A DNA stretch of 64,000 nt, from NCBI RefSeq assembly GCF_011046735.1, contig NZ_CP049258.1, positions 1,940,001-2,004,000 on the forward strand, in the 5' to 3' direction. The notes beneath the pieces were generated by a model. That model was not told the DNA's origin, made no database searches, and saw only the letters and a program-made list of their open reading frames with translations. The stretch comes from Nordella sp. HKS 07 (GTDB lineage Bacteria > Pseudomonadota > Alphaproteobacteria > Rhizobiales > Aestuariivirgaceae). Below, piece by piece: positions 49,027 through 64,000 of the stretch (positions are counted from its first letter, which is position 1; the number at the start of each line of letters is the position of its first letter). A program made the translations under genes and the position numbers.

Positions 49027-50870
49027 CCAGGACGATCCCCCTCACGATGACCCAGGCGCTGGCGCGCTTCCTGACCCGCCAGATGACCATGGTCGATGGC
49101 CGCAAGGTGCCGCTCTTCGCCGGGGTCTGGGCCATTTTCGGCCATGGCAATGTCGCCGGCATGGGCGAGGCGCTTTATGGCGTGAGGGATACGCTTCCCA
49201 CCTATCGCGCCCATAATGAGCAGGCGATGGCGCATGCGGCCGTCGCCTATGCCAAGGCCACGCGCCGTCGGCGTATGATGGCCTGCACCACCTCGATCGG
49301 TCCCGGCGCCCTCAATATGGTGACCGCCGCTGCCGTCGCCCATGTCGACCGCTTGCCGGTCCTGTTCCTCCCCGGCGACATCTTTGCCAACCGCAAGCCC
49401 GATCCGGTGCTGCAGCAGATCGAGAATTTCGGTGACGGCACGGCGTCCGCCAATGACTGCTTCCGTCCCGTCTCGCGCTATTTCGACCGCATCGCCAGGC
49501 CGGAGCAGCTGATACCGGCACTGCACCGCGCCATGCAGGTGCTGACCGATCCGGCTGAATGCGGCCCCGTCACGCTGGCGCTGTGCCAGGACGTGCAGGC
49601 TGAAGCCTTCGACTATCCGGAGAGCTTCTTCGCCGAGACGGTGTGGTCGCCGCGCCGCATTCGACCGGATGAAAGCGAGCTAACGCGTGCGGTGAGCGCA
49701 CTGCGCGCCGCCAAGAAGCCGGTGATCATATCGGGCGGCGGCGTTCTCTATTCGGAAGCCTCCGCCGCGCTGGCGGGCTTCGCCGAGCGCCATGGCATTC
49801 CCGTCACCGAGACGCAGGCCGGCAAATCCTCGCTCCCCTTCCTGCATCCGCTCAATATGGGCGCCATCGGCGTCACCGGCACCTCGGCCTCCAACCGGCT
49901 GGCGGAGGAAGCCGATGTGATCCTGGCGGTCGGCACCAGGCTTCAGGATTTCACCACCGGCTCCTGGGCGCTGTTCAAGAATCCCGACAAGACGATCATC
50001 GGGCTCAACGCGCAAGGTTTCGACGCCGGCAAGCATCGCGCTTTGCCCCTGATCGCCGATGCGCGGGTGGGGATCGATGAGCTGTCCGCCAATCTCGGCA
50101 GCTACAAGGCGCCCGCCGCTTGGACGAAGGCGGCGCAGGACGGCTTCAAGGCCTGGATGAAGGAAGCGGATGCGGTGACCGCCGCCAGCAATGCGCTGCC
50201 CTCCGACGCGCAGGTGATCGGCGCGGTGCAGCGCGCTCTCGGCCGCGATATCTCGCTGCTGTGCGCCGCGGGCGGACTTCCCGGCGAATTGCACAAGCTC
50301 TGGCAGGCGAGCACGCCGTCTTCCTACCATCTCGAATACGGCTTCTCCTGCATGGGCTACGAAATCGCCGGCGGCCTCGGCATGAAGCTGGCGCAGCCCG
50401 AGCGCGAGGTCGTGGTGATGGTGGGCGACGGCTCCTATCTCATGCTCAATTCGGAAGTGGCGACCTCGGTGATGATGGGCGTCAAGCTCACCATCGTGCT
50501 GCTCGACAACCGGGGTTATGGCTGCATCACCAGGCTGCAGAAAGCGACGGGCGGCGCCCGCTTCAACAATCTGCTCGCCGACAGCGTGCATGAGACGCTG
50601 CCCGAGATCGATTTCGCCGCCCATGCGCGCAGCATGGGCGCTGACGCCCAGAAAGTGAGCTCGCTCGCCGATCTGGAAACGGCGCTGGCGGCGGCGAAGA
50701 CCAACAAGCGCACCACCGTCATCGTCATCGACACCGATCCGTGGATTTCCACCGAGGCCGGCGGCCATTGGTGGGATGTGGCGGTGCCGGAAGTCTCAAG
50801 CCGCAAGGAAGTCGACGCGGCGCGCAAGAAATACGAGACGGCGGTCAAGCAGCAGCGGGTGGGGGATTAG
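49023..50870 (+). CDS. iolD: 3D-(3,5/4)-trihydroxycyclohexane-1,2-dione hydrolase
   Basis: IolD is a thiamine-diphosphate enzyme that opens the ring in inositol catabolism. The 615-residue product has the three ThDP-fold domains: TMTQALARFLTRQMT and HNEQAMAHAAVAYAKA (Pyr domain), ISGGGVLYSEASAALAGFAE (middle) and the PP-domain motif VMVGDGSYLMLNSEVATS followed by DNRGYGCITRLQ. The ATG overlaps the iolC TGA. After it lies a REP-type repeat. Confidence 0.95.
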   Translation: MTRTIPLTMTQALARFLTRQMTMVDGRKVPLFAGVWAIFGHGNVAGMGEALYGVRDTLPTYRAHNEQAMAHAAVAYAKATRRRRMMACTTSIGPGALNMVTAAAVAHVDRLPVLFLPGDIFANRKPDPVLQQIENFGDGTASANDCFRPVSRYFDRIARPEQLIPALHRAMQVLTDPAECGPVTLALCQDVQAEAFDYPESFFAETVWSPRRIRPDESELTRAVSALRAAKKPVIISGGGVLYSEASAALAGFAERHGIPVTETQAGKSSLPFLHPLNMGAIGVTGTSASNRLAEEADVILAVGTRLQDFTTGSWALFKNPDKTIIGLNAQGFDAGKHRALPLIADARVGIDELSANLGSYKAPAAWTKAAQDGFKAWMKEADAVTAASNALPSDAQVIGAVQRALGRDISLLCAAGGLPGELHKLWQASTPSSYHLEYGFSCMGYEIAGGLGMKLAQPEREVVVMVGDGSYLMLNSEVATSVMMGVKLTIVLLDNRGYGCITRLQKATGGARFNNLLADSVHETLPEIDFAAHARSMGADAQKVSSLADLETALAAAKTNKRTTVIVIDTDPWISTEAGGHWWDVAVPEVSSRKEVDAARKKYETAVKQQRVGD

Positions 50871-50889
50871 GGAATTCGATTCTTCTCTT

Positions 50890-51025
50890 GCAACACCCTC
50901 ATGCTGAGGTGGCCGCGAAGCGGCCCTCGAAGCATCCCTCCGGACAAGGCGAGAGTGCTGCAACACACCCTTCGAGGCTCCCCCGGCTCAAGGCCGGGGC
51001 CGCACCTCAGGGTGAGGACGGACGG
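50890..51025. repeat. palindromic repeat family C, copy 2
   Basis: Same block order as at 27697-27822: ACACCCTCATGCTGAGGTGG, CCTCGAAGCATCCCTCCGG, CACCCTTCGAGGC and CACCTCAGGGTGAGG. It separates iolD and iolE within the iol operon and, unlike terminators, lacks a T-tract. Confidence 0.7.
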
Positions 51026-51066
51026 AGCAAGTAAATTGTTTGAGGTTTGAAGAGGAGACATCACAC

Positions 51067-51951
51067 ATGGCAATCCGCATCGGCGCCAATCCGATCGGCT
51101 GGTCGAATGACGACATGCAGGAGCTCGGCGGATGGATTCCGCTCGAGCAGTGCCTGAGCGAGGCGAAGGCCGCGGGTTTTGTCGGCATGGAGCTCGGCAA
51201 CAAATTCCCGCGCGAGGCGGCGAAGCTGCGTCCGATCCTGGAGAAATACGGCCATGCGCTGATCGGCGGCTGGCATTCGATCTTCCTGATCGAGCGCGAT
51301 GCCGAGACCGAATTCGCCGAGGCCGCGCATCACCGCAAGCTGTTGAAGGACATGGGCACAAATGTCTTCATCGTGGCGGAATGCACCCGCACCATCCATG
51401 GCGACAAGTCGAGGCCACTTTCGACACGACCGAAGATGACGGAAGCCGAGTGGAAGCGCTTCACCGAAAGGCTCACAAAGCTCGCCGAGCTCCTGCGCGC
51501 GGAAGGCTTCCAGCTCGTCTATCATCACCATATGGGCACGGTCGTGCAGACGCCGGAAGAGATCGACCGGCTGATGCAGGAGACGGGTGAAGCCGTTCAC
51601 CTCCTGCTCGACACCGGCCACGCCACCTGGGGCGGCGCCGATCCGGTCAAGCTGGCGCGAACCTACCGCAAACGCATCAGCCATATTCATTGCAAGGATG
51701 TGCGTCCGGCCGTGCGCAAGGAAGCCGAGCAGAAAGACTGGTCGTTCCTCGATGCGGTCATTGCCGGCGTCTATACGGTGCCGGGCGACGGCATGGTGGA
51801 TTATGTCTCGGTGTTCAAGGAACTGCCTGGATATTCCGGCTGGGTGGTGGTCGAGGCCGAGCAGGACCCGAAGAAGGCGGAGCCGGCGACATATGCCAGG
51901 CTCGGCCATGATAATCTGGTCCGGTTCCTGAAAGAAGGCGGGCTCACCTGA
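51067..51951 (+). CDS. iolE: myo-inosose-2 dehydratase
   Basis: IolE dehydrates 2-keto-myo-inositol to the trihydroxycyclohexanedione. The 294-residue TIM-barrel protein begins AIRIGANPIGWSNDDMQELGG, has a MELGNKFPRE strand, the metal-binding YHHHMGTVVQTPEEIDRLM and LLLDTGHATWGGADPV, and ends with VVVEAEQDPKKAEP. A GAGGAG ribosome-binding site lies 12 bases before the ATG. Its stop overlaps the iolB ATG (TGATG). Confidence 0.95.
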   Translation: MAIRIGANPIGWSNDDMQELGGWIPLEQCLSEAKAAGFVGMELGNKFPREAAKLRPILEKYGHALIGGWHSIFLIERDAETEFAEAAHHRKLLKDMGTNVFIVAECTRTIHGDKSRPLSTRPKMTEAEWKRFTERLTKLAELLRAEGFQLVYHHHMGTVVQTPEEIDRLMQETGEAVHLLLDTGHATWGGADPVKLARTYRKRISHIHCKDVRPAVRKEAEQKDWSFLDAVIAGVYTVPGDGMVDYVSVFKELPGYSGWVVVEAEQDPKKAEPATYARLGHDNLVRFLKEGGLT

Positions 51952-52745
51952 TGTCGAAACTGCTGCTGAAACACAAGAAGGGTGACGGACGCATCCTGCA
52001 TGTGACGCCGGAAAGCGCCGGCTGGACCTATGTCGGCTTCGATGTGTGGAAGCTCGGCAAGGGCCAGAGCGCGAAGGGTGACGACAAAAGCCGCGAGACG
52101 TGCCTGGTCTTCATTTCCGGCAAGGGACGCGTCACGGTCGATGGCAAGGAGCTGGGGCTTCTTGGTGAACGTATGTCGCCTTTCGACGGCAAGCCTTGGT
52201 CGGTCTATGTGCCGGCGGGGGCGGCCTGGAGCGTCACCGCCGAGACGCCGCTCGAGCTCGGCGTCTGCACCGCACCCGGCACCGGCAAATTGCCGCTGCG
52301 CGTCATCTCCCCCGACCGCCTCGGCCAGGAGACGCGCGGCAAGGGCACCAATACGCGCTATGTCACCAATATCCTGCCCGAGACCGAGCCGGCGGAAAGC
52401 CTACTCGTCGTGGAAGTCATCACGCCGGGCGGCCACACCTCGTCCTATCCGCCGCATAAGCACGACCAGGACGACCTGCCGCGTGAATCCCTCCTCGAGG
52501 AAACCTATTATCACCGCTTCAACCCGCCCCAGGGTTTCGGTTTCCAGCGCGTCTATACCGATGACCGCTCGCTCGACGAGGCGATGGCGGTCGAGGACGG
52601 CGATGTGACGCTGGTGCCCAAGGGCTATCACCCTTGCGCCGCCACGCATGGCTACGATCTTTATTACCTCAATGTGATGGCGGGGCCGAAGCGCACCTGG
52701 AAATTCCACAATGCGAAGGAGCATGAATGGCTCATCGCCAAATGA
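51951..52745 (+). CDS. iolB: 5-deoxy-glucuronate isomerase
   Basis: IolB converts 5-deoxy-glucuronate to 2-deoxy-5-keto-gluconate, feeding IolC. The 264-residue cupin-type protein contains the metal-site segment GGHTSSYPPHKHDQDD followed by LEETYYHRFNPPQGFGFQRVY and the C-terminal VPKGYHPCAATHGYDLYYLNVMAGP in parts. It ends by overlapping 14 bases with the convergent HAD gene, so the two transcripts share sequence at their 3' ends and no terminator separates them. Confidence 0.94.
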   Translation: MSKLLLKHKKGDGRILHVTPESAGWTYVGFDVWKLGKGQSAKGDDKSRETCLVFISGKGRVTVDGKELGLLGERMSPFDGKPWSVYVPAGAAWSVTAETPLELGVCTAPGTGKLPLRVISPDRLGQETRGKGTNTRYVTNILPETEPAESLLVVEVITPGGHTSSYPPHKHDQDDLPRESLLEETYYHRFNPPQGFGFQRVYTDDRSLDEAMAVEDGDVTLVPKGYHPCAATHGYDLYYLNVMAGPKRTWKFHNAKEHEWLIAK

Positions 52746-53505
52746 AGCGCTCCATCAGATAATCGGGCGCCGGCTCGAATTCGCTGAGCCCCTCCGAAAC
52801 GCCGGTCTTGATCAGCAGTGTCGCAAGTCCGGCGCCGCGACCGCCGGCGACATCATGCTCGGCGCTGTCGCCGATGCACAGCACGCGCTTCGGATGTGCG
52901 ATCACCTTGAGCGCATGATCATAGATGTCGCGATAGGGCTTGCCGATCCACCGCACCGAACCGCCCTGCGCTTCGTAAAGGGCAGCGATGGCGCCGGGAG
53001 CGGGATAAAGGCCTGACGAGGTGATCATCCACCGATCGGGATTGCAGCAGATGGCGGGCTGGGTGAGGCCCTTGAGCAGTCGCTCATAGTCTTCGAGCGA
53101 GGTCCGGGGCGCATCCGATCCGAGAATCAGAAGTACTTCGGCATCTTGCGGCCGGGCGACGAGATCGAAATGATCGAAGCCATAATCGTCGCCTTCCTTG
53201 CCGATGATAAAGGCGCGTTTCGCCGGCGAGGACGCCAGCAGCTGATAGGCGACCTCTCCGGAGCTCACCGCGTCGACGAAATAGTCGCGCGGTATGCCGA
53301 TCCCCGTGAGGCGCGTGACATTTGCGGCCGCGCGCTTGCCGGAATTGGTCATCACCGCGACCGGAATGCCGAGCCGATGCAATTCGGCCAGCACCTCGAG
53401 GCTGCCGGGATAAAGTTTCGATCCGTCATGCAGCACGCCGAACTGGTCGATCAGCATGCCGTCATACTGGCCGGCGATTTCGCCGACGCCTTCAATAGGG
53501 ATCAT
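52732..53505 (-). CDS. class IIA HAD phosphatase (TIGR01459-like)
   Basis: A 257-residue HAD hydrolase with motif I LIDQFGVLHDG, in which the usual DxDGVL is altered to DQFGVL, then MTNSGKR (motif II), GKPYRDIYDHAL (motif III) and CIGDSAEHDVAGGRGAGL (motif IV). The capped IIA arrangement and the Gln-Phe variant match the alphaproteobacterial TIGR01459 group found near sugar-alcohol genes. The ATG at 53505 overlaps the preceding kinase by 14 bases. It is the last gene of the - strand polyol operon. It may remove phosphate from a dead-end sugar phosphate; the substrate is unknown. Confidence 0.82.
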   Translation of the reverse strand: MIPIEGVGEIAGQYDGMLIDQFGVLHDGSKLYPGSLEVLAELHRLGIPVAVMTNSGKRAAANVTRLTGIGIPRDYFVDAVSSGEVAYQLLASSPAKRAFIIGKEGDDYGFDHFDLVARPQDAEVLLILGSDAPRTSLEDYERLLKGLTQPAICCNPDRWMITSSGLYPAPGAIAALYEAQGGSVRWIGKPYRDIYDHALKVIAHPKRVLCIGDSAEHDVAGGRGAGLATLLIKTGVSEGLSEFEPAPDYLMERFIWR

Positions 53506-54772
53506 GACCCATCCCCCGCCAGGCGAGACGCGCGGCGCCGACCGCCGCATGTTCGCTGCGCGGCGTTTCATTGGCGACCCCGAGCAGTCTTTCGCGGATG
53601 CGCGTCCAGCCTTCATTGGCGGCGCCGCCACCAACTGTGCGCAGGGATTTGAGCGGCGTGGCGCCGAGCTCGGCGAGGCGGCGATAGGCCAGCGCCTCGA
53701 CGCCCGCTATGCCCTCGAGCAGTCCCTGAAAAAACAGCCGCTCATCATCGGGCTTTGGTGTCACACGCGACTCCATATTCGGATCATTGATCGGGAAACG
53801 CTCGCCGGGCTTCGGCAGCGGGTAGTAATCGAGGCCGGTCGGTTGATCGGGATCGATCAGGGGCGTCAGGCGCACGATGTCCGTGCGGCTCACATAGGCA
53901 TTGAGCGCAGCGCCCCCGGTATTGGAAGCGCCGCCCGCCAGCCATTGATCGCCGATGCGGTGGCTGTAGATGCCGTAATCCGGCGCGAAGACCGGCCGGT
54001 CGGAGAGCAGCTTGAGAGTCAAGGTCGTGCCGAGCGAGGTTACGCCGTCGCCGGGCTCAGAGGCGCCGCTCGCCAGAAGGGCGGCGCAGCCGTCGGTCGT
54101 GCCTGCAACGATCGCGACATTGCGCGGCAGACTGTAGCGATCGGCGATGGCGGGACGGATCTTGGCCGTGCGCTCACCCGCCGCCACCACTTGCGGCAGG
54201 AGCTCCATGGCGAGACCCGTCTCGACGATCCAGCCGGGCCAGCGCCGCGCGACCGGATCATAGCCGGTCTTCAGCGCGTTGTTTTCATCGCTCACATCGA
54301 AGCGGCCCGAGAAGCGTCCGCTAAGCCAGTCGGCCTGATGCAGAATGCGGACGGGCTTGATCGTCGCCTGCATTTCAAGTGCCCGCGCCAGTGGCGAAGA
54401 GCCGCCGCGCGCCGCCGTCTCCTGCGGCGCCACTTTCATGACCGGATCGAGATATTTCTGAGCGGCCACGTCATTATACATCGAGGCGAGGCCGGCCGGC
54501 GTGCCTTCGATGTCGGTCGGCACGATCGTGCCCGAGGTGCCGTCGATCGCCAGCGCCAGAACCTGGTGCGCCTTGAATTCTGATCTGAGCGCGAGCAACA
54601 CTTCGTCCAGCGCCGCCGCCCAGACATGCGGATCCTGCCACAGGCGGCCGAAGCTCTGCAGCGGCAGGACCATCGCGGTCTCCCGCATCGCCAGGATGTC
54701 GCCGCCGCGCCCGAGCAGGACGGCGCGCAGGCCCGAAGTGCCGATATCTATGCCGAGGGCTGCTTCGCTCAT
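53492..54772 (-). CDS. FGGY-family carbohydrate kinase (second of two)
   Basis: A 426-residue sugar or polyol kinase. The N-terminal ATPase motif is LGIDIGTSGLRAVLLG, the phosphate-loop region AIDGTSGTIV, the ADP-binding segment GTTDGCAALL followed by VTSLGTTLTLK, and the C-terminal TVGGGAANEGW. It is shorter than typical glycerol or xylulose kinases (about 500) and more like D-ribulokinase-type members. It starts on the stop of the SorC regulator (TGATG). The substrate probably belongs to the same polyol pathway as the kinase at 59859. Confidence 0.82.
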   Translation of the reverse strand: MSEAALGIDIGTSGLRAVLLGRGGDILAMRETAMVLPLQSFGRLWQDPHVWAAALDEVLLALRSEFKAHQVLALAIDGTSGTIVPTDIEGTPAGLASMYNDVAAQKYLDPVMKVAPQETAARGGSSPLARALEMQATIKPVRILHQADWLSGRFSGRFDVSDENNALKTGYDPVARRWPGWIVETGLAMELLPQVVAAGERTAKIRPAIADRYSLPRNVAIVAGTTDGCAALLASGASEPGDGVTSLGTTLTLKLLSDRPVFAPDYGIYSHRIGDQWLAGGASNTGGAALNAYVSRTDIVRLTPLIDPDQPTGLDYYPLPKPGERFPINDPNMESRVTPKPDDERLFFQGLLEGIAGVEALAYRRLAELGATPLKSLRTVGGGAANEGWTRIRERLLGVANETPRSEHAAVGAARLAWRGMGHDPY

Positions 54773-55749
54773 CACATCACCCGATCAGCCGTTGCCAGAA
54801 TTCCGGATGCCGTCGCCTCGTCGGTGATCAATATGTCGACCATGCCACCTTCGAGCGCGCCATGCAGGACATCGACCTTATCGGCGCCGCCTGACGCCAC
54901 GATGACGCAGGGCACCGCTTTGAGATCGAGCGGCGACAGGCCGACGGCCCGCTTGTTCAAGGGATGATCGACGAGCCGGCCGTGAATATCGAGCCAATGG
55001 GCGCAGAGATCGCCCACGGCACCCGCCTCCTTCAGCGACCCGGCATCGGCGGCGCTGATCAGGTCGACCTGGTTGATGGTGCTGTCGGCAGCGAGCCCGC
55101 CCGCCGAGACGAGCACCAGATCGACCTTGCGCAGGCGGTCGAACACGTCCCTGAGCATCGGCTGCTGGGCGAGGAGATCGCGCGTCGCTTCCGTATCGGC
55201 GAGCGCGGGTGCCGCGATGTAATAGCATTGCGCGTCGATCAGATCGGCGAGATGCGAGGCCGTCTCATGCGGGTTGACGGCGGCGCCGCGGGTAAGGCCG
55301 CCCATCAGCGAGACGACCGAGACGCGGCGCAAGGGCCGGCGCGGCACCGAGCGCAGGCTGAGCCTGAGGGTGCGGCCCCAGCCGACGCCGACCGACATGC
55401 CGTCTTTCAGGCGCTCGGCAAGGGCGCTGCCGGCGGCGGCGCCGATGACATGGCGCACCAGCGCCGGATCGGGCGGGGTCGGCACGATGATCGCCTGGTC
55501 GAGGCCGAAACGCTCGGTCAGCCTGTTCTCGAGCGCGACGCAGTCGGCGAGGCGGCCGGTGATGCGGATCTGCACCATTCCCTGCTCGCGCGCCTGGGCG
55601 AGCAGCCGGTTGACGCGGATGCGGTTGATGCCGAGCTTCTTGCCGATCTGCGCCTGGGTGAGGCCGGCGACGAAATAGAGCCATGCGGCGCGCGTCGCGA
55701 GCTGCTCGTCGCGGTCGACCGGCAATACCAGCAGGGACTCGTCGTTCAT
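54772..55749 (-). CDS. SorC/DeoR-type sugar-binding transcriptional regulator
   Basis: A 325-residue regulator. The N-terminal helix-turn-helix is LTQAQIGKKLGINRIRVNRLL (in two parts: LTQAQIGKKLG and INRIRVNRLL), and the C-terminal SorC sugar-phosphate-sensing domain includes VGWGRTLRLSLRSV, VVSLMGGLTRGAAVNPHE and IVASGGADKVDVLHGAL. Such proteins respond to a phosphorylated intermediate of the pathway they control. It is embedded inside the operon, overlapping rpiB by four bases, and probably regulates it. Confidence 0.87.
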   Translation of the reverse strand: MNDESLLVLPVDRDEQLATRAAWLYFVAGLTQAQIGKKLGINRIRVNRLLAQAREQGMVQIRITGRLADCVALENRLTERFGLDQAIIVPTPPDPALVRHVIGAAAGSALAERLKDGMSVGVGWGRTLRLSLRSVPRRPLRRVSVVSLMGGLTRGAAVNPHETASHLADLIDAQCYYIAAPALADTEATRDLLAQQPMLRDVFDRLRKVDLVLVSAGGLAADSTINQVDLISAADAGSLKEAGAVGDLCAHWLDIHGRLVDHPLNKRAVGLSPLDLKAVPCVIVASGGADKVDVLHGALEGGMVDILITDEATASGILATADRVM

Positions 55750-56216
55750 TTGACCGCTTTGCGGTACTTCTCGTCGATGGCATCCATCTTGGCGACCTTC
55801 GGTCCCGAGCGGCCGCCCTGGAATTCCGCATTGAGCCAGATATCGGTGAGCATCTTGGCGACCGCCGGCCCGACAATAAGCTGGCCGAAGGTGATGATCT
55901 GCGCGTTGTTGGACGCCATGGCGCGTTCCGCCGTATAGGGGTCCATCACCGGCACGGCGCGCACGCCAGGCACCTTGTTGGCGGTGATCGCCATGCCGGC
56001 CCCCGTCCCGCAGACCAGGATGCCGCGCGGATAGTCGCCGCGCCCGACGGCTTCCGCCACCTTGACGCCGATATCGGGATAGTCGACCGGATTACTGTCG
56101 ACGACACCCATATCCTCCACCTCATAGCCTTTGGCCTTGAGATGCTCGACCAGCGTGTTCTTGAGGTCGAGGCCCAGATGATCGGCGCCGATCGCAATGG
56201 ATTTCTTCTCAGTCAT
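55746..56216 (-). CDS. RpiB/LacAB-family sugar-phosphate isomerase
   Basis: A 156-residue isomerase with the family motifs SIAIGADHLGLDLKNTL, VDYPDIGVKVAEAV and the active-site GILVCGTGAGMAITANKVPGVRA (in parts), including the catalytic Cys in VCGTGAG. RpiB members isomerise ribose-5-phosphate, and relatives in tetritol pathways act on tetrulose/erythrose-4-phosphates. Context with two kinases and two polyol-phosphate dehydrogenases favours a pathway-specific role over the general pentose-phosphate one. Confidence 0.88.
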   Translation of the reverse strand: MTEKKSIAIGADHLGLDLKNTLVEHLKAKGYEVEDMGVVDSNPVDYPDIGVKVAEAVGRGDYPRGILVCGTGAGMAITANKVPGVRAVPVMDPYTAERAMASNNAQIITFGQLIVGPAVAKMLTDIWLNAEFQGGRSGPKVAKMDAIDEKYRKAVK

Positions 56217-56234
56217 GGCACACTCCGTAACCAG

Positions 56235-57293
56235 TCACGCGTAACGATGCAACTTGCTCCACGGCATTGCGAGCTTGTCGTTGGCGGTGAGCGCCTGGAG
56301 CAAAGCGGCCGTCACCGGCAATTGCGCGGCATCGAGCCTGCCCGCGGCCATCAGTTCCTTGAGCGTCGAAGCCAAGGCGATGCCGAGCTCGGCGCCCTCG
56401 ATCGTATCATCTTTCATCGGCCCGGCCTTGACCTCCGCGTAAGAGAGACCGAGGCCCAATTGCCGGCCGAGCCTGGAATTGCGGCCGGCTTGGCACGTCA
56501 CATAGAGGTCGCCGGCGCCGGGCATGCCCCAGACGCTTTTCTCGCTCCCGCCCATGAATCGCGCCAGCACCATCATTTCGGCGATCGCCTGGTCGAAGAT
56601 CACGGACGCCGCGTTGAAATTGAAAGCGCCGTTTTCGACGGGCGGCATCTTCTCATGCTGGCCGGCCGCCCAGCCGACCGAGATGGCGAAGAAATTCTTG
56701 AAGGCGGCGCAGAGCTCGACGCCGGCCAGGTCGTCGGAGACGCGCGGGTGATAATAGTCGGTCTCGAGCCAGCCGCAGAGTTTGGCGGCAAGGCCGGCGG
56801 TCCGCGAGGTGAAAACGACGCCGGTCTGCCGGCGCACCGCGAGCTCGCCCGCGATGCAGGGCCCGCCGACCGCGGCGAGATCGAGCACCATGCCGGTGCG
56901 CCGCTGCACTTCCGCCTGGACAAAATCGGGCAATGTCAGGATGGTGCCGTCTTTCGGCATCAGTCCCTTGGTGATCATCATCACCCGCACCGGCTTCTTC
57001 AGCGTCTCGCACAGGCGCTCGATGGCCCAGCCGACGCCGGCCGAGCTGACGCCGAGGATCACGAGATCGGTGTCGCCGCCGAACGCCTCGCCGAAGTCGC
57101 CATGCGCGAAGGCTTTGACTCCGTCCGGCAATTTCACATTGAGTCGCGGATGCCGGCCGGTCCTGGCGACGCTGTCGATGATCGCCTGGTCGAGATGCGT
57201 GCCGACGAGCCTGACTTCATGACCTCTGTCGCGGGCGGGGAGGACCATCGCCGATCCCATGACGCCGGCGCCGAGAATGGTGATGACCGCCAT
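56235..57293 (-). CDS. GpsA-like glycerol-3-phosphate/polyol-phosphate dehydrogenase
   Basis: A 352-residue NAD(P)-dependent dehydrogenase of the GpsA fold. The Rossmann motif is ITILGAGVMGSAM; VGGPCIAGELAV and the catalytic lysine region ELCAAFKNFFAISVGWAAG match, and GMPGAGDLYVTC is the usual GpsA substrate-site segment. It is probably a paralogue specialised for the operon, because core gpsA usually sits near other housekeeping genes; the true substrate is inferred to be a polyol phosphate. Confidence 0.8.
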   Translation of the reverse strand: MAVITILGAGVMGSAMVLPARDRGHEVRLVGTHLDQAIIDSVARTGRHPRLNVKLPDGVKAFAHGDFGEAFGGDTDLVILGVSSAGVGWAIERLCETLKKPVRVMMITKGLMPKDGTILTLPDFVQAEVQRRTGMVLDLAAVGGPCIAGELAVRRQTGVVFTSRTAGLAAKLCGWLETDYYHPRVSDDLAGVELCAAFKNFFAISVGWAAGQHEKMPPVENGAFNFNAASVIFDQAIAEMMVLARFMGGSEKSVWGMPGAGDLYVTCQAGRNSRLGRQLGLGLSYAEVKAGPMKDDTIEGAELGIALASTLKELMAAGRLDAAQLPVTAALLQALTANDKLAMPWSKLHRYA

Positions 57294-57303
57294 TTTCTAC
57301 ACC

Positions 57304-57404
57304 GTCATCCCGGCGCAAGCCGGGATCCATTCAATAAGCGCGACCTGGGAAACGCTGCCCGCGTGGAAAGAATTTAATGGATCCCGGCTTGCGCCGGGAT
57401 GACG
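57304..57404. repeat. inverted REP pair between ATPase and GpsA-like genes
   Basis: GTCATCCCGGCGCAAGCCGG (57304-57329) and CCCGGCTTGCGCCGGGATGA (57378-57404) face each other across a 48-base spacer. It lies within the polyol operon and may influence stability of the downstream mRNA. Confidence 0.75.
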
Positions 57405-57441
57405 ATAAGTGGATGAGCTCAACACTCTCATCTGAAACTCC

Positions 57442-58512
57442 TCACAAAATCGCTCTGCCGCTCTCAGCGTCAAACAGGTGAATGCGGTCGAGCCGCGGCT
57501 GCAGGCCGAGGGTCTCGCCGCGCTTGAGTTCGCGCCGCTCGTCGGTGATGGCGCAGATCTCCTCGCCGGCTAGCTCGGCATAGATATGGATCTCGGGGCC
57601 CGTCGGCTCGGTGACACTGATCGTGGCGGGGAGGCCGCCTGAGCCTGAAACCGGATCGAGATGCTCAGGACGCACCCCATAGATGACCTTGCGGCCCGCT
57701 TCCACTTCGTTGCTTTTCGGCAAGGGCAGCAGCACGTCGCCCGATCTGACCGCGATGCCGCCATCGGCCTTGACCGTCTCGCCTTTGAGCAGGTTCATCG
57801 CCGGTGAGCCGATGAAGGTCGCGACGAAGAGATTGACCGGATGGTCATAGACTTCGAGCGGCGAGCCGATCTGCTCGATGCGCCCGTCGCGCAGGATGAC
57901 GATCCTGTCGGCCATGGTCATAGCCTCGATCTGGTCATGAGTCACATAGACGGTCGTCGTCTTGAGCCGCTCATGCAGCTCCTTGATCTCGGTGCGCATC
58001 TGCACGCGCAATTTGGCATCGAGATTGGAAAGCGGCTCATCGAAGAGAAACACCGCCGGGTCGCGCACGATGGCGCGGCCCATGGCGACGCGCTGGCGCT
58101 GGCCGCCCGACAATTCGCGAGGGTAACGCTTGAGATAGGGTTCGAGATTGAGGATCTTCGCCGCCCAGGAGACCTTCTGGTCGACTTCCGACTGCGGCCT
58201 TTTGGCGAGTTTCAGCGAGAAGCTCATATTGTCGGCGACATTCATATGCGCATAGAGCGCATAATTCTGGAACACCATCGCGATATTGCGGTCCTTGGGA
58301 TGCACGTCATTGACGCGCTTGCCCGCGATCTCGATATCGCCTTTGGTGACGCTCTCGAGCCCGGCGATCATGCGCAGGAGCGTGGACTTGCCGCAGCCCG
58401 AAGGCCCGAGCAGCACGACGAAGGATCCGTCCTCGATATCGAGATCGATGCCATGGACGACCGCGACATCCCCGTAGCTCTTGAAGACCTTCTTGGCGGA
58501 AACCGATGCCAT
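57442..58512 (-). CDS. ABC transporter ATP-binding protein, UgpC/MalK-like
   Basis: ATPase of the polyol importer, 356 residues. Walker A GPSGCGKST, Q loop VFQNYALYAH, signature LSGGQRQRVAMGRAI, Walker B FLFDEPLSNLD and switch H in YVTHDQIEAMT. The C-terminal OB/TOBE domains (VIYGVRPEHLDPV, LQPRLDRIHLFDAESGRAIL) are typical of the CUT1 class. It sits between the AraM-like and GpsA-like enzymes of the operon. Confidence 0.94.
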   Translation of the reverse strand: MASVSAKKVFKSYGDVAVVHGIDLDIEDGSFVVLLGPSGCGKSTLLRMIAGLESVTKGDIEIAGKRVNDVHPKDRNIAMVFQNYALYAHMNVADNMSFSLKLAKRPQSEVDQKVSWAAKILNLEPYLKRYPRELSGGQRQRVAMGRAIVRDPAVFLFDEPLSNLDAKLRVQMRTEIKELHERLKTTTVYVTHDQIEAMTMADRIVILRDGRIEQIGSPLEVYDHPVNLFVATFIGSPAMNLLKGETVKADGGIAVRSGDVLLPLPKSNEVEAGRKVIYGVRPEHLDPVSGSGGLPATISVTEPTGPEIHIYAELAGEEICAITDERRELKRGETLGLQPRLDRIHLFDAESGRAIL

Positions 58513-58527
58513 GAGCTTTACCCGTCC

Positions 58528-59859
58528 CTATTGCGGATCACGTGAGAGGAAGTCGTCGAGCAGGCCTGCGTCATCGGCCAGGTCGAGGAACGACCAGCGG
58601 TTGCGCACCTCGCGGGCATATTTCATCGCATCGCGCCAGATCTTGCGCGGCAGATTCATCTCGGTCGCGGTGGTGGGGCCGCCGGCTTCCCTCAGTGCCT
58701 TCTCCATCTCGGCCGGGTCCATCACGAAACCCTTGAGCTCCTCGCGCAATTGCGGCCAGAGATCGGCCAGTTTGGCGTTGAACGCGTCGGCGCCCTTTTT
58801 GTCGAAGGCCTTCTTCTTCGCTTCCGCATAACACATGCTGCCGATCTCGCGGCCATAACGATCGATGAACTCCGCCTCGACGATATGGGTCGGCTTGATC
58901 TTCGGCGCCTTGTCGAGCTTGAGCAATTCGCTCTGGAGACGCGCGATGGCGAGCGAGGCGACGCCGACCTGCTGGCCATGGGTGGTGCCGGGATGAGCGG
59001 GCCCGGCGAACATGTCGATCCAGTGCGACACCTGATGCTCGCCCATCGAGCCATGATGCGAGATGCCGGTGAAGCAGACGCCGAGGCCGCACAGCGTGAG
59101 CACCCGGTGCAGGTAGCCATTGGCGGCGACGTCGTGCCGGGCGAGACCGGACGCGGCTTTCAGCATCGGCGCCTCGTCGTCCTTCTGCAGCGCATAGGGC
59201 ACCGAGGAGTAAAAGGTGTCGAAGAGGCGATGCGAGGCCCACCAGTCGATCTGCGCGGTGGAACGGCACAGGCAGTCGCCCAACCCCGCGGCCGAAAGCC
59301 AGGTCGGCGCATCAGCTGAAACCTTGAGATCGAGGAAGATGCCCTTGGGCGCATGCGCCGGCAGCGAGGTCTTGTAGCCATTGGCGAGCGTCACCGAGGC
59401 GGTGGAGGCCGCATAGCCGTTCATCGAGGCGGCGGTGCCGAAAGTGGCATAGGGCCGGCCGTCCTTGAAGGTCGCGTATTTGCAAGTGTCGCTGAGCGCG
59501 CCCGAACCCACCGCGATCACCGCATCGGCATGACGGGTCTTCTCCTGGACGAGCGCGATCGACGGCTCGTCGCATTCCATATTGCCGGGCATCACGATCT
59601 CGTCGATCGTGCCGAGCGCCTTCAATTCCCTGGCGACGCGCCGGCCCATCGCCTCGAGCGTGTTGCTGTCGGAGACGACGGCGAGGCGCTTGCCGAGCTT
59701 CAAGGGCGCGGCCACGTCGGCTGCACCACCATCGAGCGTCTCGGCGAGAAGTATGGTCTTGAACGGCACTTTCGCCGGCTTGCCGGTCTCGGGATCGGTC
59801 CAGTTGCCGGCGACGACATCGCCGATCAGTTCGTTCCAGTCGCGCATGGCGTCAGTCAT
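58528..59859 (-). CDS. glycerol-1-phosphate-dehydrogenase-like protein (AraM/EgsA family)
   Basis: A 443-residue metal-dependent alcohol dehydrogenase of the AraM/Gro1PDH group. It shows the NAD-binding VIAVGSGALSDTCKYATF, YATFGTAASMNGYAS, KGIFLDLKVSADAP, and histidines in ISHHGSMGEHQVSHWIDMF and HPGTTHGQQVGV, which include the metal ligands. The start at 59859 (MTDAMRDW) was chosen by family length and AAGGAA upstream; it overlaps the kinase stop (TGATG). Known members reduce dihydroxyacetone phosphate to sn-glycerol-1-phosphate; here oxidation of a polyol phosphate is more likely. Confidence 0.84.
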   Translation of the reverse strand: MTDAMRDWNELIGDVVAGNWTDPETGKPAKVPFKTILLAETLDGGAADVAAPLKLGKRLAVVSDSNTLEAMGRRVARELKALGTIDEIVMPGNMECDEPSIALVQEKTRHADAVIAVGSGALSDTCKYATFKDGRPYATFGTAASMNGYAASTASVTLANGYKTSLPAHAPKGIFLDLKVSADAPTWLSAAGLGDCLCRSTAQIDWWASHRLFDTFYSSVPYALQKDDEAPMLKAASGLARHDVAANGYLHRVLTLCGLGVCFTGISHHGSMGEHQVSHWIDMFAGPAHPGTTHGQQVGVASLAIARLQSELLKLDKAPKIKPTHIVEAEFIDRYGREIGSMCYAEAKKKAFDKKGADAFNAKLADLWPQLREELKGFVMDPAEMEKALREAGGPTTATEMNLPRKIWRDAMKYAREVRNRWSFLDLADDAGLLDDFLSRDPQ

Positions 59860-61382
59860 CAATTTGTTCCTTGGGCAAAGGCGGCCATGCGTGCATTCCA
59901 TTTCGAAAGAGACGGCCAGAGATCGGCATAGATGGCGGAAAGTTCGGCATAGCGCGCATGCGAACGGCTGTCCGGGGTGAACGTCCTGGTGAGGTCGCCC
60001 GTCATATTGCGCGCGGCTTCCGTGACGGTTGGATACCAGCCCGCTCCCGTCGCCGCGGCGGCGGCCGCCCCCAGCGACGATGCCTCGACCGTCGTCGAGC
60101 GCAGGACCTTGCGGCCCGACGCATCGGCAATGATCTGGCACCAGAGATCGGAAGCCGCACCGCCGCCAATGGCGACGAAATGATCGATGGGCTGCGTCAC
60201 TCGGCCGATGCGGTCCGTCACCATGGCCTGCTCGAGTGCCACACCTTCGAGAAGTGCGCGATAGACATCGCCGCGCCGGTGCGAGGCGGTGAGGCCGGCG
60301 ATGACGCCGCGCGCATGGGGATCCCAATAGGGCGTCATCGATCCCGACCAGTAAGGCACCAGCGCCAGGCCGTTGGAGCCGATGGGCGACTGTTGGGCTT
60401 CCGCCTCGAGCGTCCTGAAGATCTGCGGATTCTTCACAGGATCGATATTGAAGAGCTGCTCCACCAACCAGTTGACCAGGAAGGTGCCGGTGCGCAGGCA
60501 GGACTCGTAGATATAGCCGGTTTCGGCGATCGCCGTCATGGTGCGGAAGGCCGGATCATGCGCATAGGCCTCGCCGAAGCTGCCCGACACCACGGCGGTA
60601 CCGAGATTGAGATAGGCACGGCCCTTCTCGAACACATTGGCACCGCTGCCGGCGCATTGCCCGTCACCGCCGCCCGCCACCACGATGCAATCGCGTGGCA
60701 GGCCGGTGGCTTTTGCCGCACCCTCGGACAATGCCGCGATCTTCTGGCCCGGCCGCATCAGCCTGGGCAATTGCGCACGGCTCAGGCCCACGGCGTCGAG
60801 TAGCGTGTCGGACCAGTCCTGCGCCGCCATGTCGAGAAGCCCCATCGGATCGGCGGAAGCGGTCGAGGTGACCCATTCGCCGGTCAGATGATGGATGAGG
60901 ACGCCATGCACCTCGGCGGTCCGGGCGGTCCGTCTCCACATCTCCGGCATATGCGCGTCGAACCAGGCGCAGCGATAGAGACAGGGCGTCAGGTCGACCG
61001 GCTTGCCGGATATGCGATGGATCTCGGAGCGGCCGATGAGCTGAGCGAGCCGTTCGATTTCGGAGCGGCCACGCTCATCGAGCCACAGCGTGCCGGGCCT
61101 GAGCGGCGATCCCGCCGCGTCGAACTGCGCGAAGCTCTCGCGCTGATTGGAAATGGCGATGGCGGCGACACGCTCGGGCTTCACCTTGACCAGGACTTCG
61201 CGGATCGCGGTTTCGGCGGAGCGCCGCCAGTCTTCCGCCTCCTGCTCGAACCAGCCGGCCTGCGGATTGGACAAGGCGATCCCGGCGCGGCCTTCTGCCA
61301 GCGCATTGCCGTCGCGGTCCCAGGCGATGGCCTTGGCGGCGGTTGTCGAGGAATCAAGGCCGATGACGAGGTCGCGGGTCAT
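59859..61382 (-). CDS. FGGY-family carbohydrate kinase (first of two)
   Basis: A 507-residue kinase of the xylulokinase/glycerol-kinase superfamily. The motifs are VIGLDSSTTAAKAIAWD, ISNQRESFAQF, the substrate Asp in WLDERGRSEIER, GGGDGQCAGSGANVF, YLNLGTAVVSG, and AIGGGAASDLWCQIIAD. It is full length. The gene directly follows the binding-protein gene by 60 bases and precedes the AraM-like dehydrogenase by a one-base overlap, which suggests that it phosphorylates the imported polyol before oxidation. Confidence 0.86.
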   Translation of the reverse strand: MTRDLVIGLDSSTTAAKAIAWDRDGNALAEGRAGIALSNPQAGWFEQEAEDWRRSAETAIREVLVKVKPERVAAIAISNQRESFAQFDAAGSPLRPGTLWLDERGRSEIERLAQLIGRSEIHRISGKPVDLTPCLYRCAWFDAHMPEMWRRTARTAEVHGVLIHHLTGEWVTSTASADPMGLLDMAAQDWSDTLLDAVGLSRAQLPRLMRPGQKIAALSEGAAKATGLPRDCIVVAGGGDGQCAGSGANVFEKGRAYLNLGTAVVSGSFGEAYAHDPAFRTMTAIAETGYIYESCLRTGTFLVNWLVEQLFNIDPVKNPQIFRTLEAEAQQSPIGSNGLALVPYWSGSMTPYWDPHARGVIAGLTASHRRGDVYRALLEGVALEQAMVTDRIGRVTQPIDHFVAIGGGAASDLWCQIIADASGRKVLRSTTVEASSLGAAAAAATGAGWYPTVTEAARNMTGDLTRTFTPDSRSHARYAELSAIYADLWPSLSKWNARMAAFAQGTN

Positions 61383-61442
61383 GAATGCATCAAAAAAAGC
61401 GGCGGAGACGGGATCGTCCGCCTCCGCCCAGTCCAGGGAGTA

Positions 61443-62966
61443 TCAGAGAAGACCGGCGTCTTCGACGGCCTTGTTGATCAGGCTGGCAACGTTGTCCATG
61501 CACTTCTTGGCATCGCCGCCATAGTCCTGATTGGTGAGCAGCTTGCCGAGCTCGACCGGGATCTCATTGTTGGAGAAGCCCGCCCACAGGGGCATGTCGG
61601 GTTCAGACGCCATGACATTGTCGATCGTCCACTTCACCACTTCGAGATGGCGCGTGGTGCCGGGGCCGACGACGGCCTTGGCCTTGACGCGCGGATCCTC
61701 GAAGGAGGAAAGCCGCATCGGCGCGAAGCCGCCCAACAGCGTGCAACGGGTCATGATCTCCTTCGAGCAGGCCCACTGCATGAAGACCCAGGCGGCGTCG
61801 AGATTCTTGGAGTATTTCGAGAGGCCGAGGATCGAGCCGCCCTGATGGCCGACATTCGGGATCTCGCCGAAGCCCGCATCCGCCACGGCGCGGATTCCGC
61901 TCATGGAGGAGATCGGGTGCAGCGGCTCCCACAGGCCTTTCACCTTCGAATCATCGGCATCGAGACCGGGGAAGAACTCGTCCCAGCTGTTGACCAGCGC
62001 CACCTGGCCCGCATGCATCATCTGGAACTGGCCATCCCAGGTCGACGCGGTCGACTGCGGCGGGGCGTTCTTCAGCATCTCCTGATACCACTGGAGACCC
62101 TTGATGCCCTGCTCGTCATTGCCGGCGAACTTCTTGTCCTTGCCGAAGATCGAGCCGCCATGGCCCCACACCGCCGCCGTCCAATCGCATTCGAGCGAAT
62201 AGTGGCCCGATTTCGCCTGCAGGCCGGTGCCGAAGATGCCGTTGGCTTTCTCGGCCTCGGTGATCGCCTTCACGCCGGCGGTGAACTCGTCGAAATTGGT
62301 CGGCGGCTTGATGCCGTGCTTTTCGAGGATGTCCTTGCGATACATGGTGATGAAAATCGGAATGTCGAAGGGAATGCCGGCCCATTTGCCGTCATAGAGC
62401 GCCAGACCCTCGACCAGCGGCTTGGAGAAGTCGTCGAAGTCGAAGCCCGGCATCGCGAGATCGGGCTTGTCCTTGTAGTACTGGACCGGGTCGACGGTAT
62501 CCTGCGCGAAGGTCGCCACCCAGGACTGGTCGAGATAATAGACGTCATAGGTGCCGAGCTGGCCCTGCACGTCCTGCGTCGCCTTGGCGAGCACCTGCTC
62601 GAGCGGCACGATTTCGATCTCGACATCGATGCCGGTCGCGTCAGTGAATTCGCCCTTGATCTGGTTGAGGACGACGGTGGGCGGCGTGGCTTCCGAGGTG
62701 TAGCGCACCTTGGTGCCCTTGAATTGGCCGCCGACATCCTTGAGCCATTTGGTCATCTCTTCCGGCGTCTGGGCGTAGGCCGCATTGCCGCCGAGATTGC
62801 CGCGGAAGGGCCGCGTCGTGCCGAGAAGGCCCGAGGCGAAGGCCGAGAAGCCGATGCCCGCCATGCCGGCCTTGCGCAGGAAGTCGCGCTTGGAGATGCG
62901 CCGCGCCGCGAAGTCGCGCGCCGTGTCGATAATGAAGGTCTTCTTGTCGTAGTCACGGAAACTCAT
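61443..62966 (-). CDS. ABC transporter substrate-binding protein, large CUT1-type
   Basis: A 507-residue periplasmic receptor of family SBP_bac_1, longer than the usual 420-440. The N-terminus has an arginine-rich Tat-like signal preceded by about 25 residues (RRISKRDFLRKAGMAGIGF). Mature features are KGTKVRYTSEATPPTVVLN, VYYLDQSWVATFAQD and LVNSWDEFFPGLDADDSKV. GGAGG precedes the ATG by six bases. The gene comes after, not before, the permeases, which is the reverse of the commonest order. Confidence 0.87.
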   Translation of the reverse strand: MSFRDYDKKTFIIDTARDFAARRISKRDFLRKAGMAGIGFSAFASGLLGTTRPFRGNLGGNAAYAQTPEEMTKWLKDVGGQFKGTKVRYTSEATPPTVVLNQIKGEFTDATGIDVEIEIVPLEQVLAKATQDVQGQLGTYDVYYLDQSWVATFAQDTVDPVQYYKDKPDLAMPGFDFDDFSKPLVEGLALYDGKWAGIPFDIPIFITMYRKDILEKHGIKPPTNFDEFTAGVKAITEAEKANGIFGTGLQAKSGHYSLECDWTAAVWGHGGSIFGKDKKFAGNDEQGIKGLQWYQEMLKNAPPQSTASTWDGQFQMMHAGQVALVNSWDEFFPGLDADDSKVKGLWEPLHPISSMSGIRAVADAGFGEIPNVGHQGGSILGLSKYSKNLDAAWVFMQWACSKEIMTRCTLLGGFAPMRLSSFEDPRVKAKAVVGPGTTRHLEVVKWTIDNVMASEPDMPLWAGFSNNEIPVELGKLLTNQDYGGDAKKCMDNVASLINKAVEDAGLL

Positions 62967-63009
62967 GAATTCCTCCCATGGGTTGCGTATGTATTTGCTC
63001 GTCCGTGTC

Positions 63010-63919
63010 TCATTCCTTGAGCGAGCCCAGAGTGAGGCCGCGGACCAGATGCCGTTGAACCAGAAGAATGAAGATGAAGCCGGGCAGGATCGCCGCGGTG
63101 CCGAGCGCCGAGATGAAGCCCCATTCCGAGCCCGTGGAGGTGACGAAGGTGGTGATCTTGACCGGCACCGTGCGGATGATGGTGGTGAGGAAGAGTGACA
63201 GCAGGAACTCGGTCCACGAGAAGATGAAGCACAGGACCGCCGCCGCGGCGACGCCGCCCCTCACCATCGGCAGCACCACCTTGCGGAAGGTCTGCCAGCG
63301 CGTGGCGCCGTCGATCATCGCCGCCTCGTCGACATCCTTGGGCACATCGTCGAAGAAGGATTTGAGCAGGAGCACCGCGATCGGCAGGTTCATCAGCGAA
63401 TGGATGATGATGAGCCCGACATAGCCGAGAAAGAGATTGTCGGTGTCGCGCATGCCGGCGACCTTGTACATGCCGACGAGCGGCACGATGATCGCGATCG
63501 GCGGCAGGAAGCGCTGGCCGAGCACCCAGTTGAGGAAGCCGTCGCGCCCCCCGGAAGCGCATTCGCGAGAGAGCGTAGGCCGCGAGCACCGCGATGATGA
63601 TGGTGAGCCCGGTGGAGCCCACCGCGACGATGATCGAGTCGACGATGGTCTGGCGCGAATCATAGGAGCTGGTGCCGCCGACGCCGAAGGTCGAGCCGCT
63701 TTCGATAGCGATCTCGGCGCGCGACCAGCCGAGCAGCACGACGGCATAGTTGATGAGCGTCGGCACGAAATCGAAGACGACGACCTCGTCCTTGTTGAAG
63801 ATCGCATACATCGGCTTGATCGAGGTCAGCGCCCACCAAAACAGCGGGAACATGAAGATCGCCACGACCGTGACCGCGGTGATATCGCGCAATATGCGCT
63901 TGGGGAGTGACTGTTCCAT
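63010..63919 (-). pseudogene. ABC transporter permease, UgpE/MalG-like, with a frameshift
   Basis: A 302-residue permease in two frames. The first part (from 63919) has the first helix (ITAVTVVAIFMFPLFWWAL), a periplasmic region and ALSRMRFRG; the second, in the next frame, continues DGFLNWVLGQRFLPPIAIIV to the EAA motif EAAMIDGATRWQTFRKVVLPM and ends LTLGSLKE. The switch falls in a run of six C on the + strand (63547-63552); five would restore one frame. Without correction the first frame runs to 62963 with meaningless sequence. It could be a mutation, a phase-variable tract or a sequencing error. Confidence 0.83.
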
Positions 63920-64000
63920 CAGAGCTTCACCCGGAAAATCTTCATGAACAGGCTCGACGCGACGATCACCAGGATGAGGGTGATGAGCGAGAGCGTCGAG
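63919..64000 (-). CDS. ABC transporter permease, C-terminal end
   Basis: The last 26 codons of a gene that begins beyond the right edge: TLSLITLILVIVASSLFMKIFRVKL followed by TGA, in shorter pieces one membrane helix and a basic tail. The TGA overlaps the ATG of the next permease (TGATG). By position it is the MalF/UgpA-like partner of the 63010-63919 permease. Only the end can be seen. Confidence 0.72.
   Translation of the reverse strand, partial: STLSLITLILVIVASSLFMKIFRVKL

Follow-up and report, generated by a model that had tools for sequence, protein, structure and literature searches.

A conserved operon of Nordella sp. HKS 07 that pairs two FGGY kinases with AraM-like and GpsA-like dehydrogenases is very likely devoted to sugar-alcohol catabolism

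The alphaproteobacterium Nordella sp. HKS 07 carries an operon whose gene set very likely imports a sugar alcohol, phosphorylates it, oxidizes it, and feeds the product into central metabolism. The operon lies on the minus strand at the right-hand end of the stretch of DNA analyzed here (the window), 64,000 nucleotides corresponding to positions 1940001–2004000 of a 7.18-Mb single-contig genome. It combines an importer of the CUT1 type with two FGGY-family kinases (FGGY1 and FGGY2), an AraM-like and a GpsA-like dehydrogenase, an RpiB-type isomerase, a SorC-type regulator, and a HAD-IIA phosphatase-like protein. Polyol catabolism had been proposed in a preliminary description of the same DNA, and it is supported by a gene order kept in relatives and by the glycerol-kinase residues found in FGGY1. 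Each of the enzyme families is ordinary, whereas their combination is unusual, widely conserved, and apparently undescribed, i.e., a novel form of polyol catabolism and not a novel type of system.

In a tree of 41 rows, FGGY1 groups with 21 relatives in a clade (support 97/96) that lies apart from Escherichia coli GlpK, XylB, LyxK, AraB, FucK, and RhaB and from EryA of Rhizobium leguminosarum, which is represented by one reference row. The GlpK residues R83, E84, W103, and D245, which we take to hold the CH2OH–CHOH group of the substrate, are retained in 21 of the 22 clade members. Three other GlpK residues presumably close the pocket: Q246 has become glycine in 21 of 22 members, and Y135 and F270 are lost in all of them, the kinase of the window having T, G, and V at positions 135, 246, and 270. 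The exception to the pattern is the row from Bacterium UASB270 (L126). Because the gripping residues are kept and the pocket-closing ones are lost, the substrate would be a longer polyol; the pattern suggests that FGGY1 grips a terminal CH2OH–CHOH as GlpK does, with room for a longer chain. An R. leguminosarum kinase first labeled GlpK groups with LyxK and is without the GlpK residues, leaving that label unsupported.

The AraM and GpsA families oxidize the carbon next to the phosphate on glycerol phosphates. The GpsA-like protein of the operon belongs to a clade split from canonical GpsA with support of 100/100 in a tree of 16 GpsA-like and 9 canonical rows. All 16 GpsA-like rows have K109, K199, N200, D262, T266, R271, and N272 unchanged, which we take to be the catalytic Lys, Asn, and Asp and the Arg-Asn of the phosphate site. 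A loop reads PCIAxEL in 11 of the 16 members and PSFAx(D/E)(V/L) in the canonical rows. A second GpsA match in the genome, at 2122282–2123178, is 30% identical and groups with canonical GpsA. Judged by these sequence features, the operon gene is not the housekeeping gpsA.

For the AraM-like protein, the best NCBIfam model is that for sn-glycerol-1-phosphate dehydrogenase (G1PDH), with 135 bits against an equivalog cut-off of 413; the glycerol dehydrogenase model gives 44 bits. Residues D177, H275, H279, and H294, presumably metal ligands, are invariant across 16 rows. The genome holds two further AraM paralogues, one in a DeoR–FucA–FGGY–AraM set and the other in an AraM–HAD-IIB–DeoR–FGGY set. 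Among AraM loci with flanks but without a GpsA-like match, 9 of 16 contain an FGGY kinase (L071 and L072 counted; the AraM places in G331:C95 and G149 were left out of this survey).

The arrangement is well conserved among close relatives. The GpsA-like gene occurs at better than E 1e-60 in four of four same-genus genomes, and gene order is identical in all three of these with full coverage; the same order, minus RpiB, is found in the three genomes of the family whose contigs were long enough (for G004 and G010, the comparison yielded fragments). The closest named relatives at the operon are Aestuariivirga sp. YIM B02566, "Rhizobiales bacterium Y(2018)," and Taklimakanibacter lacteus, with GpsA-like proteins 86–92% identical. 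An alignment scan of named genomes with the GpsA-like protein gave 367 confirmed relatives, of which the best 80 were kept, and statements about phyla rest on these 80. The 46 loci of at least 17 kb among them (the long loci) were set against 20 canonical gpsA loci of similar length. FGGY1 was matched in 42 long loci (41 at 40% identity or more, L126 at 32%), the solute-binding protein in 37, AraM in 31, SorC in 29, and RpiB in 8; all five were at zero in the canonical gpsA loci, one of which has any FGGY kinase at all. The long loci are related, so these counts serve as description and should not be read as independent trials.

FGGY1 and the GpsA-like protein form clades of their own and travel together in several phyla, with joint occurrences in Chloroflexi, Nostoc, and Desulfobacterales loci. 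The AraM and GpsA-like genes are separable, as the difference between 31 loci with AraM and 42 with FGGY1 illustrates. AraM matches occur in proteobacterial loci, with weak ones (25–26%) in two Anaerolineales loci. Genes resembling the E1 and E2 components of thiamine-pyrophosphate-dependent pyruvate dehydrogenase lie close to the GpsA-like gene in loci from Chloroflexi and from a small number of other organisms (L122, L124, L147, L151–L154, L157, L158, L161, L162, and L166). By annotation, a Shinella plasmid (L184) also has E1/E2 genes, these being close to a kinase of the FGGY1 clade and to a distant relative of AraM (26%). In Bacterium UASB270, two GpsA-like genes stand in tandem (L126:10001-12291); the locus also has FGGY kinases and RpiB, and AraM is without a match there.

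Plasmids carry related gene sets. Closer AraM relatives were found on Rhizobium, Sinorhizobium, Agrobacterium, Shinella, and Acidiphilium plasmids (32 of 72,556 records at E 1e-40, 50.7–55.8% identity). In three rhizobial plasmid clusters (L087, L088, and L091), importer genes accompany AraM, a SorC-type regulator, and an FGGY1-type kinase, and the cluster ends in a GpsA-like gene. In L088 this gene is unannotated and in two pieces, and in the R. etli p42a copy the GpsA-like stretch is in three; a GpsA-like gene is not among the genes listed for the Acidiphilium stretch. Rubrobacter plasmids combine more distant AraM relatives (31–32%) with GpsA-like genes, FGGY kinases, and RpiB. Two such Rubrobacter islands (L183 and L187) hold several FGGY kinases, genes annotated as sn-glycerol-1-phosphate dehydrogenase, GpsA-like genes, a glycerol-3-phosphate dehydrogenase/oxidase, a dihydroxyacetone-kinase-family gene, RpiB, and Rpe.

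The reading that we tentatively prefer, at somewhat less than an even chance, is a kinase-first route for the import and degradation of an alditol, in which a ketose-1-phosphate leaves by an aldolase or by a swap of its phosphate. The CUT1 importer would bring in the polyol, FGGY1 would phosphorylate a terminal CH2OH, and the AraM-like protein, the GpsA-like protein, or both would oxidize the carbon beside the phosphate to give the ketose-1-phosphate. FucA- and RhaD-type aldolases cleave ketose-1-phosphates to dihydroxyacetone phosphate (DHAP). In a first possible exit, a FucA-like aldolase would cut the intermediate to DHAP and a short hydroxyaldehyde. In a second, the HAD-IIA protein would strip the 1-phosphate, FGGY2 would rephosphorylate the free ketulose at its far end, and RpiB would make an aldose phosphate for the pentose phosphate pathway. 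This swap is proposed because aldol cleavage leaves RpiB, the HAD protein, and FGGY2 unused. Gene content, conservation, clade membership, linkage, and residues are observations; each reaction, the sequence of steps, and the substrate are inferences. A more ambitious version seems unlikely to hold in full: a cross-phylum alditol pathway in which a kinase resembling glycerol kinase forms a polyol-1-phosphate, dehydrogenases of the glycerol-1-phosphate and glycerol-3-phosphate families make the ketose-1-phosphate, and the HAD protein and second kinase move the phosphate to the opposite end for RpiB, and thence the pentose phosphate pathway, instead of, or beside, aldol cleavage.

The candidate exit enzymes can be placed to different degrees. 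FGGY2 aligns with 5htn, of the SePSK/AtXK-1 type, at 300 bits with the GTSG loop and AGTTD stretch retained, and it is assigned to this D-ribulose kinase type, SePSK being credited with phosphorylation of D-ribulose in PMC4880283. The HAD protein passes the HAD-SF-IIA-hyp4 model (172.7 versus 103.75 bits) and a HAD-IA subfamily model (26 versus 23.3). RpiB passes PRK05571 (166 versus 135 bits) and rpiB_lacA_lacB (142 versus 88.3). A dedicated role for RpiB is likely because RpiA is present elsewhere in the genome and the operon gene is the sole RpiB-family match.

FGGY2 is scarce, with matches at E 1e-60 in 9 of 385 genomes of the class, this one included. The other eight FGGY2 loci (L071 and L242–L248, two from one genus) all have it near a HAD-IIA gene (29–42% identical) and an aldolase-family gene of the RhaD type. 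EryA-like and EryB-like genes adjoin the FGGY2–HAD module in L242 and L243. Fifteen of the 46 long loci have FGGY2 at 45% identity or more, in each case with HAD-IIA directly after it, and no HAD-IIA match occurs in the rest. Because FGGY2–HAD recurs beside different kinase and dehydrogenase genes, it has the appearance of an exit module that can be moved and coupled to differing polyol kinase/dehydrogenase pairs.

The likely end of the pathway changes because a FucA-like class II aldolase (PF00596), which lay outside the view of the preliminary description, is linked to the operon. The named models that score best for it are those for L-fuculose-phosphate aldolase and ribulose-1-phosphate aldolase, both under cut-off. 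In several relatives the gene adjoins permease 1 on its upstream side; here, a copy 80% identical is at 2012378–2013007, 7.5 kb upstream of the operon. A class II aldolase-family gene falls within the shorter stretches in 12 of the 15 loci with FGGY2 and HAD-IIA, and the remaining three, from the genus of the window, show an aldolase in longer stretches. The idea that RpiB and the aldolase are mutually exclusive exits was rejected as an artifact of 10-kb flanks and antisense open reading frames, an aldolase-family gene being linked in 15 of 15. Upstream of the operon, the FucA-like aldolase is paired with a DRL-family oxidoreductase (PF21135; L208:6437-7762, genome 2010936–2012261), a family we take to be DXR-like; the pair could point to branched polyols. 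In many relatives a kinase with an FGGY_C_2 domain (L103:118-1521 and homologues) is divergent from the FucA-like aldolase.

A pentitol of the ribitol or arabitol type is, weakly, the best-fitting substrate. The closest Protein Data Bank chain to the solute-binding protein by sequence is 5iai, about 25% identical, whose ligand is ribitol (PMC8468352). Models of the binding protein were predicted at a pLDDT of 38 from the single sequence and 53 from a ten-row alignment; among the 50 rows listed for structural matches to this low-confidence model, 5iai is fifth by Z and has the top identity (25%), in a tie that runs over many sugar binders. The evidence from the binding protein in favor of a pentitol is thin. 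The N terminus of the protein appears by eye to be twin-arginine-like. The importer ATPase passes the NCBIfam UgpC-subfamily cut-off (509.5 versus 432 bits, among the best 25 of 186 models). Permease 2 changes frame near residue 118; because all nine relatives compared read through in one frame, the change reflects either an error of the assembly or a lesion that arose recently in the strain.

Several points weigh against the preferred kinase-first route and its pentitol substrate. Neither kinase and neither dehydrogenase of the operon passes any NCBIfam cut-off. The GpsA-like gene was found below E 1e-60 in 4 of 19 same-family genomes, the others having canonical-type matches or none, and FGGY1 has no match in 4 of the 46 long loci (L140, L145, L148, and L165, Fischerella among them). 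The frame change may have left permease 2 of this strain nonfunctional, the resemblance of the binding protein to 5iai is only that of distant relatives, and its structural matches are tied across many sugars. The FucA-like gene lies outside the operon proper, with 6 kb of mostly opposite-strand genes between. RpiB is not known to act on ketose-1-phosphates, so the second exit requires an unproven phosphate swap, and RpiB is present in only 3 of the 15 loci with FGGY2 and HAD-IIA and absent from 12. The AraM name is also weak evidence of substrate because the annotation G1PDH is carried by a haloarchaeal protein that turned out to be a glycolaldehyde reductase (PMC9700705).

Four other arrangements of the same genes can be considered. 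In the first, which is rather unlikely, two parallel routes would meet at RpiB: FGGY1 and the GpsA-like protein would act kinase first, while AraM would oxidize the free polyol and FGGY2 would phosphorylate the resulting ketulose. FGGY1 and the GpsA-like gene are indeed paired without an AraM match in Chloroflexi loci, in Nostoc (L164), and in two loci from metagenome-assembled genomes of Hyphomicrobiales (L119 and L121), and two Chloroflexi loci (L157 and L166) have a zinc dehydrogenase and a xylulokinase-type kinase in place of AraM and FGGY2. However, the AraM and FGGY1 genes overlap by one base here and are neighbors in most alphaproteobacterial loci mapped, AraM is present without an FGGY2 match in Mesorhizobium loci (L125 and L127–L132), and AraM scores far better on the G1PDH model than on that for a dehydrogenase of free glycerol.

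In the second, AraM and the GpsA-like protein would divide between them the two enantiomers, or the two ends, of a single polyol phosphate supplied by a kinase without stereoselectivity; the preliminary description had suggested that the operon could process both stereoisomers, or both ends, of such a compound. The known stereochemistry of the two families makes this chemically sensible, and both proteins share an operon and retain their likely catalytic residues. The idea is nonetheless improbable: 15 long loci out of 46 are without an AraM match, neither AraM paralogue locus of the genome has a GpsA-like match, and the UASB270 locus has two tandem GpsA-like genes and no AraM match.

It is very improbable that the operon serves erythritol or threitol, with the GpsA-like protein standing in for EryB and with RpiB producing erythrose-4-phosphate. 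An RpiB-type isomerase and an FGGY kinase are common to erythritol loci, EryC is matched in one long GpsA-like locus (L139) and TpiB in two (L115 and L166), and RpiB scores 143 bits on the D-erythrulose-4-phosphate isomerase model; this last score is below the cut-off of 240, and FGGY1 falls outside the EryA branch. No matches to EryC or TpiB are listed for the same operon in six relatives (L061–L066), and none are in the gene list of the window. A separate locus of the genome (L212, 1655000–1672000) has EryA-like (52%) and EryB-like (64%) genes, a RhaD-type aldolase-family gene, and importer genes; no EryC, TpiB, or RpiB matches are listed for it. Taken together, the kinase clade, the lack of EryC and TpiB, and the separate EryA/EryB-like locus indicate that the operon is not the erythritol pathway. 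Use of glycerol or glycerophosphate, with the 1- and 3-phosphates interconverted via DHAP, is scarcely credible: the names AraM, GpsA, and UgpC-type ATPase fit it, as does a Rubrobacter plasmid on which an annotated aquaporin and glycerol-3-phosphate dehydrogenase/oxidase accompany a kinase of the FGGY1 clade and a distant relative of AraM (32%), but FGGY1 has lost GlpK Q246, Y135, and F270, a canonical GpsA is encoded elsewhere, and RpiB, FGGY2, and the aldolase would be left without obvious use.

The kinase-first alditol route has partial counterparts among known systems. The rhizobial erythritol locus (eryABCD, tpiB, and rpiB; R. leguminosarum plasmid L195, with the ery names as our reading of gene order) shares an FGGY kinase, a glycerophosphate-type dehydrogenase, SorC, RpiB, and an ABC importer with the operon. 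The operon differs in being without EryC and TpiB, in having AraM and GpsA types in place of a GlpD type, in its other kinase clade, and in its extra kinase and HAD protein. The preliminary description was correct that EryB- and EryC-like genes are lacking from the operon, with the EryA-like and EryB-like genes being located at the separate locus.

The Bacillus subtilis ara operon, araABDLMNPQ, likewise brings together an FGGY kinase, a HAD-IIA protein, AraM, and a CUT1 importer, and relatives of the operon described here add a class II aldolase-family gene, of the superfamily of AraD. Unlike the ara operon, this one has no isomerase AraA and has an extra FGGY kinase, a GpsA-like protein, RpiB, and SorC. 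By family content it is closer to the B. subtilis ara operon than to the erythritol locus compared. The placement of AraM in an ara operon is also mentioned in PMC5059525. The haloarchaeal noncarboxylating pentose bisphosphate pathway uses a HAD phosphatase and a FucA-type ribulose-1-phosphate aldolase that yields DHAP and glycolaldehyde (PMC9700705). The operon resembles it in these two families, whereas the haloarchaeal pathway starts from nucleosides and is without a polyol kinase or a GpsA-like step. The rhizobial and Acidiphilium plasmid clusters share AraM (51–56% identical), an FGGY1-type kinase, and a SorC-type regulator with the operon, and the rhizobial ones also a CUT1 importer and a GpsA-like gene. 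They differ in having HAD-IIB, GlpD-type, short-chain dehydrogenase/reductase (SDR), and aldolase/SDR genes, the Acidiphilium cluster having a class II aldolase and a different importer; RpiB and FGGY2 are not among their listed genes, and no published function was found for them. A "ribitol kinase" of B. diazoefficiens, as presented in the excerpts of PMC5996035 and PMC10888616, belongs to a mannitol operon and not to this one. Among the matches listed from the open-license literature, with subscription papers mostly outside it, no publication describing the gene combination was found, in agreement with the preliminary view that it is not a described pathway.

The layout of the operon is given in Table 1. 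All the families that had been named before, i.e., the importer, two FGGY kinases, AraM, GpsA, RpiB, SorC, and HAD IIA, were found, each backed by Pfam, and extension to the right placed the first gene, permease 1, just outside the window. From permease 2 to HAD-IIA in transcription order, the gaps are 43, 60, -1, 15, 148, 18, -4, -4, and -14 bases. The tight packing noted before is borne out, while the "many one- to four-base overlaps" were slightly generous, with four of nine neighboring pairs overlapping (by 1, 4, 4, and 14 bases).

Table 1. Genes of the operon in transcription order, with positions in the window
Feature	Position	Strand	Basis of assignment
CUT1 permease 1, first gene (3' end in window)	63922..64000; whole gene to window-equivalent 64878 (L009:13923-14879)	-	BPD_transp_1 4e-18; UgpA-like, under cut-off
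CUT1 permease 2, two reading frames	63010..63919	-	BPD_transp_1 on 63010-63807 frame
Solute-binding protein, 507 aa	61443..62966	-	SBP_bac_8 4e-28
FGGY1, candidate polyol kinase	59859..61382	-	FGGY_N/FGGY_C (PF00370/PF02782); own clade; GlpK-like R/E/W/D
AraM-like protein (sn-glycerol-1-phosphate dehydrogenase type), 443 aa	58528..59859	-	Fe-ADH_2 8e-31; PDB 9h4x 1e-28
CUT1 importer ATPase (UgpC/MalK type)	57442..58512	-	ABC_tran + OB_MalK; NCBIfam UgpC subfamily
GpsA-like dehydrogenase ("GpsL")	56235..57293	-	NAD_Gly3P_dh_N/C; clade apart from canonical GpsA
RpiB-type isomerase	55746..56216	-	LacAB_rpiB; NCBIfam RpiB models passed
SorC-type sugar-binding regulator	54772..55749	-	Sugar-bind PF04198 2e-63
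FGGY2, SePSK/AtXK-1 (D-ribulose kinase) type	53492..54775	-	FGGY_N/FGGY_C; PDB 5htn 2e-88
HAD-IIA phosphatase-like protein	52732..53505	-	Hydrolase_6/Hydrolase_like; TIGR01459 172.7 bits vs cut-off 103.75

Beyond permease 1 the genes are on the opposite strand and include, among those scanned, an ABC permease and an FAD-NAD(P)-binding protein. At the other end, iolB, iolE, and iolD (49005–52745), which all pass NCBIfam cut-offs, meet the 3' end of the operon head-on, with a 14-base overlap between the HAD-IIA and IolB genes. At least one of iolD, iolE, and iolB is found past the operon end in many loci among L092–L117. An Rfam scan of the window gave zero matches.

The operon bears on the naming of genes well beyond this genus. 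Because members of the GpsA-like and FGGY1 clades turn up in several phyla, a function established here would give a name to many genes that currently carry the label glycerol-3-phosphate dehydrogenase or "FGGY kinase." Arguments about how archaeal lipids originated have drawn on bacterial members of the G1PDH (EgsA/AraM) family (PMC5059525). If the AraM clade serves sugar-alcohol catabolism, many G1PDH-type labels would be wrong.

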